Shown: positions 27,120 to 63,647 of the stretch, one piece after another
Layout: each line of letters opens with the position of its first letter
How positions within the stretch are numbered: position 1 is the first letter of the stretch
Origin: Rubripirellula lacrimiformis
GTDB lineage: Bacteria > Planctomycetota > Planctomycetia > Pirellulales > Pirellulaceae
Direction of reading: 5' to 3'
Length of the DNA stretch: 64,000 nucleotides
Assembly: GCF_007741535.1 (NCBI RefSeq)
Contig: NZ_CP036525.1
Coordinates: forward strand, 2,356,001-2,420,000
Made by a program: the position numbers and the translations under genes
Notes under the pieces: generated by a model
The model's input: the letters and a program-made list of their open reading frames with translations, nothing else
Database searches by the model: none
Told to the model about the DNA's origin: nothing

Positions 27120-27822
27120 CAATGACCAGGAACACTTCTATTCAGGACGCGGAAAAGACATTCAGGCAGGTAGCAGCGTCGGTCCCGCCAAGGCCATCGT
27201 CGTCCCCTGAGAAGCACGGCCAAATTGCCACGGTGACCTCGCCGATTGGTGGGCCACGCACGGCGGGGCAATCAACGGTGGCCATCCGAAAGCGGACGCG
27301 ATCAGGCAACAGGCATCCATCGGGGACTGGAACCAACTGGTTAACAGTTTACACAGAATATTGCCGCGGGTCTTGGCAAGGTTTTTCTGCATGGTGACGG
27401 CGGGCCGTCTTGCGGCCGGAAGCGAAGATCCGGCCCGTTGGCGGTGATCCGCAGTTTGGCGGCGTCGATCGGCGGTCGATCGGCGGTCGGGCGGCGGTCG
27501 ATCGGCGGTCGGGCGGCGGTCGGGCGGCGTGGATCGTCCCTGAGGGGCCTGTGGACCCGTCATTCGGTGTCTGTGAACCGCGATGGATTGTTCATGAACC
27601 GGTGTGCGGGGCAACCGTCACGGGAGCAAGCGTCGCGGGGGATAGCCGGAACAGGGCGACCGAGAAAGGCCGCCAGCAAAGAATTTGTGCCGATCGTTCT
27701 TTGAGTGCTCGGATTGACCGAGGAAACGATTGGCAGGCACTTCGGCAGTTGGTTTGTGCCGACGGGACCGCCAAGTTTGGCGATCCCGTGGATGGTGCGT
27801 TGGTGGAAACTTGGCCGGAAGC
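27120..27822. other. 703-base GC-rich gap with an 11-bp tandem repeat
   Basis: No gene is supported. Open frames here are short, overlap in several frames and consist of Arg/Gly/Pro-rich translations of a GC-rich simple repeat (27468-27533). The right part, 27540-27822, also shows no domain-like product on either strand. Confidence 0.55.
27468..27533. repeat. 11-bp GC-rich tandem repeat (about six copies)
   Basis: Units alternate between ATCGGCGGTCG (27468-27478, 27479-27489, 27501-27511) and GGCGGCGGTCG (27490-27500, 27512-27522), with a degenerate sixth from 27523. The period of 11 bases is not a multiple of three and lies outside genes. Confidence 0.92.
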
Positions 27823-53447: not shown

Positions 53448-53462
53448 TCAGCCGCCGATCGA

Positions 53463-53588
53463 TCGTTTAACCGCGTGGGCATCGCCCCGCGCGCCGATTG
53501 CAAATCACCCAGCCCGCTAGTCACGTGGCTGAACGAGGCGCAACCGATTGGTCGTTTAACCGCGTGGGCATCGCCCCGCGCGCCGATG
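53463..53588. repeat. Two solo copies of the GTTTAACCGCGTG element between convergent genes
   Basis: TCGTTTAACCGCGTGGGCAT continues with CGCCCCGCGCGCCGAT at 53463-53497 and again at 53552-53586, 89 bases apart. The sequence matches, with about one change, the inverted right arm of the palindrome in the 59.6-61.8 kb array. The copies lie between the tails of two convergent genes. Confidence 0.9.
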
Positions 53589-56609: not shown

Positions 56610-57941
56610 TCAGTCCCCACGCATCTTCAAACCGAGGTCCGTCAATTTCTCGCGGACCTCGTTCAGGCTGGTCACGCCGAAGTTCTTGCACTCCAGCATG
56701 TCGTCGCCTGTCTTTCGGATCAGTTCGCCGATCGAATTGAGTTGCAGTCGAGCCATGCACTTGCGAGCACGTACCGACAGGTTCAGATCCGAAATTGGAC
56801 GATCCAGCAGAGCCTGTTCGTCGGGCGACATGTGGCTGGTGTCGACCGGTGGGTCGTTGTTCTTCTTTTCGTGAGCAAACTGACCCAGGCTTAGGCCCTT
56901 GCTGGTCAGCATTTCACGAATTTCGAACAAGCTGGTTTCGCCAAAGTTCTTGCTGCTAAGCAGTTCGGCTTCGCTGGTCCGTGTCAGGTCACCGATCGTT
57001 TCGATGCCCATCTTTTGCAGGCAGTTACGGCTACGAACACTCAGTTCGAAGTTCGTCACCGGCATGTTCAGGATCTGAGCCAAGCGATCGTTGCGACGTT
57101 GGGCTTCTTCGTCATAAAGCATGTTGCCGGTCGCGGCCGCATCCTTCATGTACAACTGGGCCTGCGGGTGATCTGGATAGCAATCCAGGATCCGCTTGTA
57201 GCACAGTTGGGCCTTGTCGAACTTGTTGTTGTCTTCGTAAATCAGACCCAAGTTGATCAGGGCGCCGACACCGGTTGGGAACGTCTTGGCGGCTCGTTCG
57301 TACAGGGCCAGGCTTTCCTGGTCGTTGCCCATGCGATCGTTTTCGAGTGCCAAGCCGAACAGAGCACCAGCGTGGTTTTCGTCGGTGTTGACGGCTCGTT
57401 GATAAAGCGCCAATGCCTCTTCTTTGCGTCCACCGACGGCGGCAACCGTCGCGGCACGTTGGTACATGTAATCAGCCGTCTGCTCTGCAGGGCCGAAGAT
57501 GTTGTCCAAGATCGCCATCGCTTCTTCGATGCGACCGGCATAGCGGTGGCATTCGGCGATGCCGATCTGGCATTGGTCGTTGTTGTAGCCCGAAGTCAAA
57601 GCTTTCTGATACGCGGCGATCGCGTCTTCGTACTGGCCCAATTCGAACTGGCTGCGAGCCTGATAAAACAGCGCCATCGCACCGCCATCGGCAGCCTGCA
57701 GCGTATTCAGGGATTCACGGAATTTACCCAGCAGAAATTCGCATACGCCCTTCTTGGTCGTCCCGGCAGGACTCAGCGTATCGTCGTCGTCCATCTCGTT
57801 GACGGCGTCGCGCAATTCGCCAAAGTGGCCGTAGTTTTCCGAAATCGCGGTTCGGATCTTTCCCACGTCGGCGGGGCCGAACGAGTTGTTGGAAAGGATC
57901 GTTTCCTTCAGGTCGAGGACGTCCAGCTCGGTTTCACTCAT
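56610..57941 (-). CDS. TPR protein with two RNA-polymerase alpha C-terminal domains
   Basis: A 443-residue protein from ATG 57941 (AGGAG ten bases upstream). Residues ~20-270 are tetratricopeptide repeats (MALFYQARSQFELGQYEDAI, TVAAVGGRKEEALALYQRAV, GALINLGLIYEDNNKFDKAQ). Residues ~290-355 and ~380-443 are each close copies of the RpoA C-terminal domain: FELSVRSRNCLQKMGIETIG with NFGETSLFEIREML, and LNLSVRARKCMARLQLNSIG with NFGVTSLNEVREKL. The Arg equivalent to Arg265 is kept in both; the Lys298 position is Thr in both. It may bind DNA or a transcription factor, or compete with polymerase. It cannot be rpoA itself, since the N-terminal domains are missing. Confidence 0.9.
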   Translation of the reverse strand: MSETELDVLDLKETILSNNSFGPADVGKIRTAISENYGHFGELRDAVNEMDDDDTLSPAGTTKKGVCEFLLGKFRESLNTLQAADGGAMALFYQARSQFELGQYEDAIAAYQKALTSGYNNDQCQIGIAECHRYAGRIEEAMAILDNIFGPAEQTADYMYQRAATVAAVGGRKEEALALYQRAVNTDENHAGALFGLALENDRMGNDQESLALYERAAKTFPTGVGALINLGLIYEDNNKFDKAQLCYKRILDCYPDHPQAQLYMKDAAATGNMLYDEEAQRRNDRLAQILNMPVTNFELSVRSRNCLQKMGIETIGDLTRTSEAELLSSKNFGETSLFEIREMLTSKGLSLGQFAHEKKNNDPPVDTSHMSPDEQALLDRPISDLNLSVRARKCMARLQLNSIGELIRKTGDDMLECKNFGVTSLNEVREKLTDLGLKMRGD

Positions 57942-58147
57942 CGACACAGGTCTCCTGCCCTCCGCGGGGGGCTTCAAAAGCATGTGATACGGGAGCAAGA
58001 AACATCGGTGCGGTACCAACGAATCCTGCCGCGAATAAGTCCGCAAATCGCTCGGTAGAACCGAGCATTCTGTGATCAAACCGCTATTTTTTCCGTGCAC
58101 TTCATCCAAAGGCTGCTGGACCGGTCTTCGGGCCGGTCAAACAGAAA

Positions 58148-58496: not shown

Positions 58497-59111
58497 CTAC
58501 TTCTGGACGCCGGAGACCACCCGAACGGCCTGGATCAGGACGGGTTCGACGGGAACATTCTCCATCAAGCCGCCCTTGGGCGCGGGAACCGTGCGAGTCG
58601 GCTTGGCTTCGATTTTATCGACCACATCCTTGCCTTCGATCACTTTTCCGAACACGGCGTACCCGAAACCATCCGACCGAGGGTCGGCGCGGTTCAAGAA
58701 GCTGTTTTTTGTGCCCGAATTGATGAAAAACTGGCTGGTGGCACTGTGGGGGTCGCCGGTCCGAGCCATCGCGATGGTGTATTCGTCATTTCGCAGTCCA
58801 TTGGACGCTTCGTTGCGAATCGGTGGCAGGGTTTCCTTTTCGCTCAAGGTTGCGTCCATTCCACCGCCTTGGATCATGAAATCGGGCATGACGCGGTGGA
58901 AAACGGTGCCAGGGTAATGGTCCTTTTCGATATAGGCCAGAAAGTTAGCAACCGTCTTGGGAGCCTTGGCTTGGTCCAGTTCGAGGACGATTTTGCCTTC
59001 GGTGGTCTCCATTTCGACCACGATAGCCTTGTCAGCGGCCAACACGGTGGACGCAAAGACGCCGGTCATCAACGCGAAAGCGGCGGCAAACATCGAGATT
59101 CGTTTCTGCAT
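58497..59111 (-). CDS. Exported cyclophilin-type peptidyl-prolyl isomerase
   Basis: Isomerises proline bonds during folding of exported proteins. A signal peptide (MQKRISMFAAAFALMTGVFA, cleavage near VLA) directs it to the periplasm. The cyclophilin core has VANFLAYIEKDHYPGTVFHR, VMPDFMIQGGG, MARTGDPHSATSQFFIN and YAVFGKVIEGKDVVDKI, keeping the catalytic Arg in FHRV and the QFFIN strand. Mature length is usual for the PpiA type. ATG 59111 with AGGAG ten bases before; the open frame to 59243 is ignored. The repeat array begins 475 bases upstream. Confidence 0.94.
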   Translation of the reverse strand: MQKRISMFAAAFALMTGVFASTVLAADKAIVVEMETTEGKIVLELDQAKAPKTVANFLAYIEKDHYPGTVFHRVMPDFMIQGGGMDATLSEKETLPPIRNEASNGLRNDEYTIAMARTGDPHSATSQFFINSGTKNSFLNRADPRSDGFGYAVFGKVIEGKDVVDKIEAKPTRTVPAPKGGLMENVPVEPVLIQAVRVVSGVQK

Positions 59112-59586
59112 TCCTGAGGAACTCCTGAGTTCAGAAAATCGTTGGCGACGGTGCGACGTCCCGCAGGACGGGGAACGGCGACGGTCGACAAAGGTGGGAC
59201 TTTGGGTGGGACTGGCAATGCCATCATTCGCCGGCGCCGCCACAGGGCGTTCCCTGTAGACAATCCGCCCGCGGACTCATTGTCACGTTTTGTTCGTACA
59301 AGGCAACCTTTGCGAGGGCAACATGGATCTTGAATCCCTGCGATTCGCCGATCACACGATGGTGCATTGTAAATTAGCAAGCCGAGGCAAACCGATGAAA
59401 TACAGTACCTTGGCCGCGGTGGCAACGCGATTCACGTCGAATCTTTGTTTTGAGTGCATTTCGCGGTTGGCGATTTTCGGGGCAACCAGGAAGGCCAGTC
59501 TTTGGGGCCGCTTCGTCCCACGTACGTTTCGCCGCGCGCCACGCGGGTACGTTTCCCACACGTCTGAACAAACCAGCACGCAAGTC
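59112..59586. other. Region between cyclophilin gene and repeat array
   Basis: About 475 bases with no supported gene. A 100-codon plus-strand frame starting near 59290 has no recognisable product. Segments near 59524-59570 (GTTTCGCCGCG, CCACGCGGG) look like decayed pieces of the repeat unit, so the array may once have reached further left. Confidence 0.45.
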
Positions 59587-61812
59587 GTTTAACCGCGTGC
59601 CCATCGGGCCGCGCGTTTTCGGTCCGGTGCGCGCGGGGCGTTGCCCACGCGGTTAAACGATAGGGCCGCTGGCATGATGAGAACCTCGCGCAATGCATCG
59701 TTCATGTTCGTTTCACCGCGTGCCGATCGGGCCACGCGTTTTGGGTCCGGTGCGCGCGGGGCGTTGCCCACGCGGTTAAACGATAGGGCGGCTGGCATGA
59801 TGAGAACCTCGCGCAATGCATCGTTCACGTTCGTTTAACCGCGTGCCCACCGGGCCTCGCGTTTTACGTCTGGTGCGCGCGGGGCGTTGCCCACGCGGTT
59901 AAACGATAGGGCCGCTGGCATGACGAGAACCTCGCGCAATGCATCGTTCACCTTCGTTTAACCGCGTGCCCACCGGGCCGCGCGTTTTCGGTCGGGTGCG
60001 CGCGGGGCGTTGCCCACGCGGTTAAACGATAGGGCGGCTGGCATGATGAGAACCTCGCGCAATGCATCGTTCACATTCGTTTAACCGCGTGCCCATCGGG
60101 CCGCGCGTATTCGGTCCGGTGCGCGCGGGGCGTTGCCCACGCGGTTAAACGATGGGGCCGCTGGCATGCCGGGAACCTCGCGCAATGCATCGTTCACATT
60201 CGTTTAACCGCGTGCCCATCGGGCCGCGCGTTTGGTCCGGTGCGCGCGGGGCGTTGCCCACGCGGTTAAACGATAGGGCCGCTGGCATGCCGGGAACCTC
60301 GCGCAATGCATCGTTCACATTCGTTTAACCGCGTGCCCATCGGGCCGCGCGTTTTCGGTCGGGTGCGCGCGGGGCGTTGCCCACGCGGTTAAACGATTGG
60401 GCCGCTGGCATGATGAGAACCTCGCGCAATGCATCGTTCACGTTCGTTTAACCGCGTGCCCACCGGGCCGCGCGTTTTAGGTCGGGTGCGCGCGGGGCGT
60501 TGCCCACGCGGTCAAACGATAGGGCCGCTGGCATGCGAGAACCTCGCGCAGTGCATCGTTCACGTTCGTTTAACCGCGTGCCCATCGGGCCGCGCGTTTT
60601 CAGTCTGGTGCGCGCGGGGCGTTGCCCACGCGGTTAAACGATTGGGCGGCTGGCGTGATGAGAACCTCTCGCAATGCATCGTTCACGTTCGTTTAACCGC
60701 GTGCCCATCGGGCCGCGCGTTTTCGGTCGGGTGCGCGCGGGGCGTTGCCCACGCGGTTAAACGATGGGGCGGCTGGCATGACGGGGACTTGTGCAGCGTA
60801 TGGTTCGCGTTGGTTTTGCCGCGTGGACGTCGGGCCGCGCGTTCGGTCCGGTGCGCGCGGGGCGTTGCCCACGCGGTTAAACGATTGGGCGGCTGGGATG
60901 CCGGGAACTCGCGCAGTGCATCGTTCACGTTCGTTTAACCGCGTGCCCATCGGGCCGCGCGTTTGGTCTGGTTCGCGCGGGGCGTTGCCCACGCGGTTAA
61001 ACGATGGGGCGGCTGGCATGACGGGAACCTCGCGCAGTGCATCGTTCACGTTCGTTTAACCGCGTGCCCATCGGGCCGCGCGTTTTCAGTCTGGTGCGCG
61101 CGGGGCGTTGCCCACGCGGTTAAACGATTGGGCCGCTGGCGTGATGGGGACTTGTGCAGCGTATGGTTCGCGTTGGTTTTGCCGCGTGGACGTCGGGCCG
61201 CGCGTTTTTGGTCCGGTGCGCGCGGGGCGTTGCCCACGCGGTTAAACGATTGGGCGGCTGGGATGCCGGGAACTTGTGCAGCGTGTGGTTCGCGTTCGTT
61301 TCGCGGCGTGCCCATCGGGCCGCGCGTTTGGTCTGGTGCGCGCGGGCGTTGCCCACGCGGTTAAACGATAGGGCCGCTGGCATGACGAGAACCTCGCGCA
61401 ATGCATCGTTCACGTTCGTTTAACCGCGTGCCCATCGGGCCGCGCGTTTTTGGTCCGGTGCGCGCGGGGCGTTGCCCACGCGGTTAAACGATGGGGCGGC
61501 TGGCATGACGGGGACTTGTGCAGCGTATGGTTCACCTTCGTTTAACTGCGTGCCCATCGGGCCGCGCGTTTTCGGTCCGGTGCGCGCGGGGCGTTGCCCA
61601 CGCGGTTAAACGATGGGGCCGCTGGCATGACGGGAGCTTGTGCAGCGTATGGTTCACGTTCGTTTAACCGCGTGCCCATCGGGCCGCGCGTTTTCGGTCG
61701 GGTGCGCGCGGGGCGTTGCCCGTGCGGTTAAACGATGGGGCGGCTGGCATGACGGGGACTTGTGCTTCGCATCGTTCGCGTTCGTTTCGCCGCCTGGCCG
61801 TCGGGCTGCTGT
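59587..61812. repeat. Tandem array of ~18 palindromic 119-123-bp units
   Basis: The first core runs 59587-59658: GTTTAACCGCGTG at one end, CACGCGGTTAAAC at the other, perfect 13-bp inverted arms, with further pairing of CGCGCG inside, about 72 bases in all. A 51-base linker follows, then the next core. The anchor GCGTTGCCCACGCGG (last unit GCGTTGCCCGTGCGG) recurs at 59638, 59761, 59884, 60007, 60130, 60251, 60374, 60497, 60619, 60742, 60862, 60982, 61105, 61227, 61346, 61469, 61591 and 61713. Two linker classes exist: one with GAGAACCTCGCGCAATGCAT, one with GGGGACTTGTGCAGCGTATG. A decayed final core reaches 61812, four bases from the stop of the flavoprotein gene. Confidence 0.97.
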
Positions 61813-61815
61813 GGT

Positions 61816-62916
61816 TTAGGCGACTAGTGAGTTTGCGACACGGGTCACCAGGGACGGGCAGGTTGCAGCCAAACTTGCGAAAAGACGACGTCCAATTTTA
61901 TGGTGCAGTGAGGTCGTGATCACCTTGCACATTTGGCGACGCCGATTCAGCAGCCGATTCAAATTGGCGTTCCATTGGGGACCCAGCGTTGTCGGATCAG
62001 CGGTCGATGCAATCAAGTTGGCCGCCTCGATCCCGCTGGCCAAAGCCCAACTCATCCCCTCGCCCGTGAAGGGTTCGACATAACCAGCCGCGTCTCCAAT
62101 CGCGATGATTCGACCATTGCCGGAAACGCGTGTTCGTCGCATCGGTGGCGTGGTAACGACGCTATGGACCTGGTCCCAGTTGGTCACATCAAACGCACTT
62201 CGCTGAACCAGTTGTTGCATTCTTTGAACGGGATCGCCAAGCGTTTGTGATTGGTTGCCCGACCGCAGTGCGGCTGCGACGTCGACTCGTCGTTCATCAA
62301 GACGAACCAGTCCGACGTATCCGTCGTCGCCACAAGCCATGTAGATCGCACCGCTTTCGATCGAGTCGGTCGCAATCGTGCAGGAGACACCGAAAGGGCC
62401 ATGAGGGGCTTCGATCCACGGCAAAATATCATTGAATCCACCCGACGAAAGTCCGGACGCAATCACGGCAATGTCGAAACGTGATGATGTGATCGAACTC
62501 TGATGTTTCAGCTGGACATCCACACCGCGATCATCTTGGCCAAGGATGCGGCCGCTCGTGTTCATGGATACTTCGACGCCCAGTTCAACCGCTCTTTCGA
62601 TCAGCACCGGATCAAGACTTTCTCGCGAAATCGCGAGCCCCTGCGGGATTTTGGCTTCGACCAGATGCGAGTCAAACGAAGCGATCCAGCGATCGGTCGC
62701 CAACCCGAGGTCGACGACCGTTTGTCGGATCGCCAACGTTTCCAGACTGTGCAAACCTTTCGCGTTGAGGCAGCATCCGCACGCTTTGGATCGCGGGAAT
62801 TGTTTCCGTTCGGCAAGCGTGACGTGGCAACCAAGTCGTGCCAGCATGATCGCGTTGCTGGCGCCCGCTGGCCCACCGCCGATCACAAGAACCTTGCGAG
62901 GTTGATCGGAAATCAT
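61816..62916 (-). CDS. Geranylgeranyl-reductase-like FAD-dependent oxidoreductase
   Basis: A 366-residue flavoprotein. It has the N-terminal FAD-binding loop VLVIGGGPAGASNAIMLARL, then AERKQFPRSKACGCCLNAKG, which has the Cys-rich form seen in geranylgeranyl-reductase/halogenase-like monooxygenases, and the second FAD motif IIAIGDAAGYVEPFTGEGMS. The substrate is unknown: prenyl reduction or aromatic hydroxylation are both possible. Its ATG overlaps the methyltransferase stop (ATGA), so the two are translated together. The frame is open to 63435, but the extra part overlaps the methyltransferase. Its stop abuts the repeat array. Confidence 0.88.
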   Translation of the reverse strand: MISDQPRKVLVIGGGPAGASNAIMLARLGCHVTLAERKQFPRSKACGCCLNAKGLHSLETLAIRQTVVDLGLATDRWIASFDSHLVEAKIPQGLAISRESLDPVLIERAVELGVEVSMNTSGRILGQDDRGVDVQLKHQSSITSSRFDIAVIASGLSSGGFNDILPWIEAPHGPFGVSCTIATDSIESGAIYMACGDDGYVGLVRLDERRVDVAAALRSGNQSQTLGDPVQRMQQLVQRSAFDVTNWDQVHSVVTTPPMRRTRVSGNGRIIAIGDAAGYVEPFTGEGMSWALASGIEAANLIASTADPTTLGPQWNANLNRLLNRRRQMCKVITTSLHHKIGRRLFASLAATCPSLVTRVANSLVA

Positions 62917-63647
62917 GGTGACCTTCGGTGCTGGTTGTTGGTTGGGGCAAAATCGGGGGCCCACAGTTTGAAATAAAATCGCCCGGGAAAGATGCGCCGT
63001 GCCTGGATGGTTCCTCCCACCGCTTCTTCGGCCAGCGTCTTGGCTTCGGACAATGTGTAGGCACCTTCGACGCTCAGCCGAGCATCGTGGTGGACCACTT
63101 TGGATCGAGTCAGCACACGCGAAGCAGCCGAAATCAGCTCTCGGTTCAACTTGGACCTTTCCAGATCGCAAACCATCGACGCAACTCGCGCGGCGGAATG
63201 CATGGATTTCAGCAAATGGATCGTGTCGTGCGGATCCAGGTGATGCAGAAAGAGTGAGTTGGTGATGACATCGAAACCGGTGGGCAGTGGTTCGCGAATG
63301 CAGTCCTGTTGGATCGCCGAAATCTTGACACCCGCCAACGCTGCTCTTTGGAATTGTTTCTCGATTGCGAAATGACTGATTTCGACGGTGGTCACTTCGA
63401 TGTCGATCCCGCATCGATTTCCCATCTGGCTCCATGCAATGGGCAGGTCGGCGGAGCCCGATGCGACGTCCAGTACGCGCAGTTTGCCAGAGGTGTGCTG
63501 GGAGGCAATCTTTTTCAGATGACGAAACAGAATCGGTGCGATGAAAGAAACTTTGTTTAGCCTGGCCAGGCCCGAGAGCGCGTGCACATGCAGCTCCTCG
63601 GGCAGATCTTCCTGATCCATGATTTCCGGTTGCCGGTTACGTTCCAA
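62913..63647 (-). CDS. Class I S-adenosylmethionine-dependent methyltransferase
   Basis: A 244-residue enzyme with Rossmann motif I LRVLDVASGSADLPIAW, an acidic strand-2 end in VEIS, and FDVITNSLFLHHLDPHDTIHL as motif with post-strand-4 helix, followed by a C-terminal substrate-binding part. It starts with TTG 63647, with AAAGG eight bases upstream; an ATG at 63620 is the alternative. A stop lies in frame shortly upstream, so no longer start exists. The ATGA overlap with the flavoprotein points to a two-step modification of one small molecule, possibly a polyketide or quinone. Confidence 0.85.
   Translation of the reverse strand: MERNRQPEIMDQEDLPEELHVHALSGLARLNKVSFIAPILFRHLKKIASQHTSGKLRVLDVASGSADLPIAWSQMGNRCGIDIEVTTVEISHFAIEKQFQRAALAGVKISAIQQDCIREPLPTGFDVITNSLFLHHLDPHDTIHLLKSMHSAARVASMVCDLERSKLNRELISAASRVLTRSKVVHHDARLSVEGAYTLSEAKTLAEEAVGGTIQARRIFPGRFYFKLWAPDFAPTNNQHRRSP

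Follow-up and report, generated by a model that had tools for sequence, protein, structure and literature searches.

The described systems closest to the repeat studied here are those in which repetitive extragenic palindromic (REP) sequences accompany a REP-associated tyrosine transposase (RAYT). In these systems, known as REPtrons and REPINs, extragenic palindromes of high copy number pair up as inverted REPs and show compensatory changes, the gene for an HUH/tyrosine transposase is flanked by REPs of its own, tandem clusters include flanking sequence, and the palindromes are targets of insertion sequences (ISs) (PMC3116915, PMC8266576, PMC6006769). We analyzed a window, meaning a whole stretch of 64,000 nucleotides (nt), of the Rubripirellula lacrimiformis chromosome (contig NZ_CP036525.1, positions 2,356,001 to 2,420,000) that holds a tandem array of a palindromic element resembling the RAYT/REP systems in all of these respects. 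We conclude that the array is very probably a cluster that arose by tandem expansion of a REP doublet (REPIN-like) belonging to a RAYT/REP system. It is unlike the described systems in its foot, TCGTTTAAC (GTTTARC across the clade) instead of GTAG or GTGG, and in its scale, with 49 clusters, the largest holding 24 units (some units are partial), counted in 46 stretches plus the window of one genome; in P. fluorescens SBW25 the largest REPIN cluster holds four REPINs and the two largest REP arrays 12 GI and GIII sequences (PMC3116915, PMC8266576, PMC6006769).

Two further groups stand close. The TIRtrons/TIRYTs are RAYT-like genes with long non-GTAG flanking repeats, and some of these repeats make up genomic families or occur as dimers and clusters, as found here; R. 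baltica is among the species rich in RAYT-like genes and flanking repeats, and the GTAG-23 elements of T. roseum are clustered in large blocks (PMC3733652). Since that paper already describes RAYT-like genes with non-GTAG repeats, the kind of system is already known, but the GTTTAAC foot was not found in the parts of it consulted, where the sole common terminal inverted repeat (TIR) motif is GGGGWSAS. Class 3 TnpAY1 proteins of Planctomycetes, Acidobacteria and Proteobacteria are, like the protein described below, Y1 proteins with atypical hairpins of high copy number on their flanks (about 600 hairpins in Solibacter; PMC6006769). They carry a YV[VI][AENY]EQ motif and a CnGA foot, in contrast to the Y-V-x-x-N-P and the GTTTARC foot found here, and on the Y motif, present in all 16 aligned proteins, we rejected membership in that class; among the rows listed from the class table of PMC6006769, we read none as matching in all three of the HxH, W and Y motifs. 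In the literature searched, which covered that on TCGTTTAAC in part, we found neither a GTTTARC/GTTTAAC foot as a planctomycete repeat nor any palindromic repeat elements of Rhodopirellula.

Results

Layout of the window array

Tandem Repeats Finder (TRF) gave a period of 123 with 18.2 copies and 90% matches, and our unit table lists 18 units, which agrees with the roughly 18 units in 2.2 kb described in an earlier note on this DNA made from the sequence alone. In window coordinates, the array and its first unit are laid out as follows.

59585..61806, plus strand: tandem array of 18 head-to-tail REP-doublet (REPIN-like) units (TRF, unit table).
59585..59660, plus strand: core of unit 1, 76 bp long, with TCGTTTAACC/GGTTAAACGA closing its two inverted hairpins (sequence, fold, structure counts on 62 cores).
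59585..59593, plus strand: left foot of unit 1, TCGTTTAAC, the same tag that surrounds relatives of the transposase (sequence, locus tag counts).
59599..59609, plus strand: left mini-hairpin of unit 1, GCCC-ATC-GGGC; its counterpart elsewhere is the target of an IS1182-like element that duplicates the 3-nt loop.
59636..59646, plus strand: right mini-hairpin of unit 1, GGGC-GTT-GCCC; its counterpart elsewhere is the target of an IS4-like element, with a 10-bp duplication.
59652..59660, minus strand: right foot of unit 1, TCGTTTAAC on that strand (sequence, unit table).
59661..59707, no strand: first linker, 47 bp, class A (unit table).

The unit spacing measured at the right hairpin, 119-123 bases, is that given in the earlier note, and so is the arrangement of two linker classes, one on the left, the other mostly on the right and a mixture in the middle (AAAAAAAAABAABBABBB). 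Its dimensions needed revision: the window cores measure 73-76 bp rather than 72, and the 17 inter-unit linkers 46-47 bp rather than 51. Inverted arms of 13 bp, described there as perfect, are so in 11 of the 18 units and carry one to three mismatches in the other seven. Across the 18 units the cores share 93% mean pairwise identity, against 83% for the linkers. An Rfam scan at the gathering threshold assigned the array to no family, its window matches being two tRNAs only.

Structure of the core

The earlier note had proposed to fold one core. Folded as RNA, one unit has a strong predicted structure on both strands: the plus strand reaches -47.0 kcal/mol and the minus strand -41.9 kcal/mol, with z scores of -3.9 (200 dinucleotide shuffles) and -3.3, respectively. 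Candidate structures were compared on 62 cores, about one per cluster, comprising 44 from the host and 18 from four relatives (64 were listed and two, L022 and one from L074, were dropped). The best-supported structure combines an outer stem of 10 bp with two inverted hairpins and a short stem in the middle; 95.0% of its cells are paired, both sides have changed in 44, and its covariation is 0.126, a level reached by none of 500 shuffles, the slid controls reaching at most 0.041. Each hairpin presents the TCGTTTAAC foot first and then a mini-hairpin of four base pairs with a three-nt loop. The clearest compensatory case is the left mini-hairpin, which reads GGGC-ATC-GCCC in the same-genus genome G021 and GCCC-ATC-GGGC in the host, so that both sides are swapped, the local hairpin is kept and the long-range pairing is lost. 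Consensus folding alone also gives the local pairs 12-30, 13-29, 61-76 and 62-75. A four-way cloverleaf comes close behind (93.5% paired, 32 both-side changes, covariation 0.106), and the core may pass between the two forms by branch migration. We rejected a plain long palindrome, which has 82.3% paired cells, 24 both-side cells (as high in 140/500 shuffles) and a covariation of 0.077 (10/500).

Copies, clusters and linkers across the host genome

The host chromosome is a single 8.54-Mb contig. A search with a 25-base core pattern at up to three mismatches, following the earlier note's proposal of a full-genome search, found the core dispersed, with 229 + 322 = 551 matches against none for the reversed control. 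A profile search of the 46 stretches and the window then resolved 49 clusters with 2-24 units each, 525 units in all (some partial), where units up to 2.5 kb apart were joined, so that some clusters enclose IS copies, the transposase gene or a helicase-like gene. Because the stretches were chosen by the strongest matches and by IS positions, solo copies elsewhere are possible, and at least one further core match (3040073) lies outside them. At 6853305-6856129 (L033), two small arrays of opposite orientation flank one helicase-like gene, about 1.8 kb.

Cores are 94% identical within clusters (up to eight units per cluster) and 83% between them. Linkers, which range genome-wide from 16 to 54 bp, are 82% identical within clusters and 48% between, against 45% for shuffled linkers (39 of the 49 clusters). 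Linkers thus recur inside arrays, as the earlier note had argued in setting the array apart from clustered regularly interspaced short palindromic repeats (CRISPR); we likewise rejected CRISPR, in which spacers are unique. Its proposal of repeated unequal exchange is borne out in part: array-specific linkers fit it, but other linkers are common to clusters megabases apart, for which local exchange alone is insufficient. The clusters at 3527138, 3632205, 3673397 and 5543668, up to 2 Mb apart, have a near-identical 20-bp linker (75-95% identity). This common linker suggests that array units, not cores alone, move or convert each other.

A RAYT-type transposase inside a core cluster

The cluster at 5221867-5223587 encloses, with cores on both sides, a gene at 5222195-5222806 for an HUH/tyrosine transposase of 204 amino acids, which answers the earlier note's call to look for a RAYT transposase. 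No other match of this close type occurs in the host genome, which has seven further RAYT-like matches. In a search of the genome with PF01797 the transposase gene appeared as a row below the cut-off (22.4 bits, cut-off 23), and it was recognised by reading the gene inside the cluster. The HxH and Y-V-x-x-N-P motifs are invariant in all 16 aligned proteins (host plus 15 relatives), and every one of them matches the "REP-associated tyrosine transposase" model of NCBIfam (NF047646). For a relative with 59% identity, the predicted fold (mean predicted local distance difference test score 81.7; residues 18-28 and 33-48 below 50) has its best E-value to IS200/ISDra2 transposases (1.7e-5); to 4er8, a REP-bound RAYT, it matches at E 8.2e-4 with a root-mean-square deviation of 3.7, the lowest among the 50 structure matches listed, and a template modeling score of 0.45 by query length.

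Linkage and co-variation of repeat and transposase

The association recurs outside the host. In G115, a single-contig genome of another genus, a 72%-identical gene lies amid nine tandem full-length cores and two partial ones, and in a Fuerstiella metagenome-assembled genome a 59%-identical gene has two cores, on one side only. More distant relatives are accompanied by other hairpin bodies with the same foot, e.g., TCGTTTAACGGCAAGCCGAAGGC. TCGTTTARC, on either strand, is present within about 450 nt of 15 of 24 same-type loci, at 14 of them on both sides (83 hits against 0.24 expected from shuffles), versus 1 of 41 other Y1 loci (1 hit against 0.43 expected); this split was made by hand on E-value, left out L165-L170 and placed eight weak matches among the 41, which include overlapping loci (L044, L045).

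A second collection of 80 named Planctomycetota loci, incompletely independent of the first since it was fetched by a separate route but contains partly the same genes, gave the same picture. TCGTTTARC occurs within 500 nt of 41 of the 80 genes (29 on both sides), with 131 hits in 75,284 bases against 0.72 expected; the 128,773 bases at 1.5-2.5 kb contain 5 hits, from 4 loci. The shorter GTTTARC is found near 65 loci (60 on both sides; 287 hits) and at 1.5-2.5 kb in 16 hits at 14 loci; TCGTTTARC is absent from 39 of the 80 loci, and 15 do not have even GTTTARC. A core model built without these loci gave 39 places at E<=0.05 once hits on both strands were merged; 33 lie no more than 500 nt from the gene, spread over 21 of the 80 loci. 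The same core model found no match at E<=0.05 in 46 other Y1/RAYT-like loci (weak matches: L099, 0.42; L094, 1.4; L043, 1.6).

We then placed hairpin bodies on a transposase tree; 39 loci were labelled by hand from the printed repeats, and the 37 that translated without a stop make up the tree. Several rows are the same in the two locus collections, with seven identical or near-identical pairs in the tree. The 12 labels require 12 changes, where the minimum is 11 and the shuffled mean 25.7, and none of 200 shuffles was as low. The three genes with the window-type body form one clade (100/98). Hairpin bodies broadly follow the transposase tree.

Occurrence among related genomes

Of 149 genomes of the family, 20 have core matches (E<=1e-4, with stricter filters) and 22 a close relative of the transposase (E<=1e-5). 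The two occur together in nine genomes against three expected (p 4e-4), an overlap that is partly self-made, as the core model also catches related bodies. The presence of any RAYT-like gene was rejected as a predictor of cores, since such genes are found in 26 of 30 chosen genomes, with or without cores. In answer to the earlier note's question of solo against tandem copies, cores are mostly solo in G021 and tandem in G027 and G115. Several of the solo cores of G021 (e.g., L048, L053, L057) have in common, on their 3' side, a stretch like CTTCACGGCGTTGG, as though the unit that moved was longer than the core.

Insertion sequences in the mini-hairpins

A search of the host genome, which scored 40 of 108 first-look candidates and could have missed weaker or shorter copies, yielded 12 long copies of one IS kind (two subfamilies) and seven of another, which we take to be IS1182-like and IS4/IS50-like, respectively, from Pfam domains (one protein per kind). 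All 12 IS1182-like copies interrupt the left mini-hairpin at its loop, one of them (5797579) in a degenerate core. Eleven are bordered by a 3-bp duplication equal to the loop (ATC, AAC, GGC, GCT, GAT, AGC or AAT); in the remaining copy the loops do not match, as would follow from recombination. Six of the seven IS4/IS50-like copies occupy the right mini-hairpin, where they are bordered by a 10-bp duplication (GGGCAACGCC or GGGCATCGCC), and the seventh (405228, L086) lies, with no duplication, in a different repeat that carries a GGGC-rich palindrome.

Palindromes are known as IS landing sites, and the host elements resemble these cases: all ten copies of the IS4-family ISRm22 lie in REPs (PMC1525189), and IS1272, of the IS1182 family, targets stem-loops, with model pathways that include duplication of the loop only (PMC5678879). 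The host differs in that the duplication left by its IS1182-like element is exactly the 3-nt loop for 11 of the 12 copies, and in that two IS kinds use two hairpins of one repeat.

Gene context

The 49 gene gaps that hold clusters are convergent in 27 cases, tandem (co-directional) in 22 and divergent in none, compared with 20, 103 and 60 among the 183 remaining gaps with a length of 80 bp or more (Fisher p: convergent 3e-10, divergent 7e-8); genes were called by a home-made hexamer script, and those inside clusters were dropped before counting. Clusters lie at a median of 64 bp from 3' ends and 247 bp from 5' ends. By hand count, 31 of the 49 follow the local leading direction of replication (binomial p 0.085). 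The window array is itself placed just past the 3' end of a flavoprotein gene, as the earlier note had stated, and its surroundings hold the following features.

61816..63435, minus strand: FAD-dependent oxidoreductase gene (FAD_binding_3, PF01494, E 6.4e-17; open reading frame and Pfam), whose 3' end abuts the array.
58497..59117, minus strand: cyclophilin-type peptidyl-prolyl isomerase gene (PF00160, E 6.8e-43; Pfam), with its 5' side toward the array at about 470 bp.
53462..53585 (about), minus strand: degenerate second pair of window cores, between convergent predicted genes (profile matches, context, sequence).

Elsewhere in the window, 27440-27536 is a separate short G+C-rich tandem repeat with periods of 11/22/33, and 56610-58109 on the minus strand encodes a 499-amino-acid protein that combines tetratricopeptide repeats with an RNA polymerase alpha C-terminal domain (PF03118, E 1.1e-42), an odd pairing.

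Discussion

The sequence traits that mark RAYT/REP systems were found together in the host and its relatives: a high-copy and mainly extragenic palindrome, an inverted doublet, a RAYT-type Y1 gene, repeats flanking that gene and a body specific to the clade. The earlier note had suggested an expanded REP or miniature inverted-repeat transposable element (MITE), and this idea holds up well given the dispersed copies, the solo cores of G021, the two-hairpin cores, the RAYT-type gene in a cluster and the relatives with the same foot. The case for a REPIN-like doublet draws on what can be read off the DNA, namely anatomy, compensatory changes, the transposase in a cluster, the tag around its relatives, the co-variation of body and clade, the 3'-end bias and the IS positions. 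The system is a planctomycete counterpart of the REPs known from E. coli and Pseudomonas, and a variant in its GTTTARC foot, in the scale of its tandem expansion and in its planctomycete transposase clade. The gene at 5222195-5222806 lies inside a core cluster and is the sole gene of its close type found in the genome; its product is most likely the cognate mover of the cores.

Mobility, copying route, present activity and any benefit to the host are matters of inference. In the mechanism that we propose, the core would fold on single-stranded DNA, e.g., on the lagging-strand template, where the transposase would read foot and hairpin, cut, rejoin and seed doublets at new intergenic sites. Slippage or unequal exchange may then multiply a seeded doublet together with adjacent DNA head to tail, which would leave arrays that are alike inside and differ in linker from one another. 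Insertions would survive mainly past the 3' ends of genes, and two unrelated IS kinds land in the mini-hairpins.

Several observations weigh against a REP doublet moved by this transposase. The consensus foot, TCGTTTAAC, is not GTAG or GTGG, and we rejected the canonical GTAG REP family on this ground; the CGTC REP family, which has a CGTC tag and no transposase, was rejected on the same foot and because a transposase is associated here. The host transposase scores below the cut-offs of both NF047646 (E 4e-12, 46 bits, cut-off 80) and Pfam Y1_Tnp (21.6 bits, cut-off 23). The largest body group on the tree (GGCAA, nine rows) needs four changes and is not a single clade. No single-copy cluster occurs in the 46 stretches plus the window, so that fresh single insertions were unobserved there, and in no relative among the matches listed, many of them short-contig drafts, do the two genes flanking the window array stand side by side as an empty site. 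Of 741 cluster pairs, 25 have linkers that agree at 70% or more, in some cases across megabases, and local amplification of one seeded doublet does not account for these. Finally, 11 of the 20 core-bearing genomes, including the single-contig G027 and G145, are without a close relative of the transposase, and other RAYT-like genes exist in the host and in core-bearing genomes (matches: G000, 8; G021, 15; G027, 11), so that a different RAYT-like protein may move the cores. A few of these other genes were examined, and none of those lies beside a strong core. It is possible that the transposase was lost in the genomes without a close relative and the repeats survived; REPtron deletion has been reported in E. 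coli strains (PMC3733652).

Among the alternatives, the one that fares best is also compatible with a REPIN-like origin, and we rate it as less likely than not: the arrays might be kept mainly for a host function at 3' ends, as bidirectional terminators, as protection of mRNA 3' ends or as supercoil sinks between convergent genes. The 27/22/0 gap bias, the median of 64 bp to 3' ends and the strong folds on both strands speak for it. Selection against insertions in promoters would yield the same bias, however, and a similar 3'-end bias is known for ordinary REPs (PMC3733652), which means that it argues for class membership and promoter avoidance as much as for function; patchy occurrence in the family (20 of 149 genomes) in turn argues against an essential role.

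We consider it unlikely that the cores are a MITE-like element of a different transposase and that the RAYT-type gene merely landed in one array. Such a history would suit the cores of G027 and G145, the other RAYT-like genes of core-bearing genomes and the DDE transposase genes found inside clusters. It fits poorly with a tag that flanks the same gene type in two locus sets, with same-type cores beside the gene in G115 and Fuerstiella, and with a hairpin body that broadly tracks the gene tree. The IS ends (GAGGCTGTGAA, CTCTTTATCC) are also unlike those of the cores, and it is the ISs that break up cores, not cores that border the ISs.

That the units are integron attC sites of empty cassettes is highly improbable. 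The attC pattern is RYYYAAC...GTTRRRY, which the arms GTTTAAC...GTTAAAC fit, and among 36 host matches to the integron integrase model TIGR02249 two exceed the curated cut-off (2970738 and 192198; L040, L041). No core match at E<=5 lies within about 1.5 kb of these two intI-like genes, however, the linkers of 16-54 bp are too short to hold cassettes, the arms are fully paired and the linkage is to a Y1 transposase instead; we therefore dropped this candidate. An assembly artefact, a collapsed or chimeric repeat, is just as improbable given one 8.54-Mb contig, 49 clusters with mostly their own linkers and the occurrence of related cores in tandem in G027 and G115, two genomes of a different genus that are each a single contig.

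Returning to the RAYT/REP reading, a bolder version of it, which we offer as a speculation with the odds against it, is that the repeats belong to an unnamed, phylum-wide Planctomycetota branch of RAYT/REP systems with a constant GTTTARC foot and co-evolving bodies, in which the host transposase would drive head-to-tail copying by repeated single-strand transfer from one foot, giving tens of arrays in place of scattered doublets, and in which the hairpins would serve ISs as safe landing pads.

Draft assemblies may collapse arrays of this kind, and our guess is that they could be commoner than they appear; with at least 49 tandem clusters in one genome, the question of how a REPIN becomes an array can be tested. 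The loop-exact duplications left by ISs provide indirect evidence that the mini-hairpin, or a matching palindrome, is recognised in living cells. The published work on REP recognition cited here concerns GTAG-tagged REPs (PMC8266576), and a constant but different foot joined to clade-specific bodies is a natural experiment on how foot and hairpin are read and how they change together.

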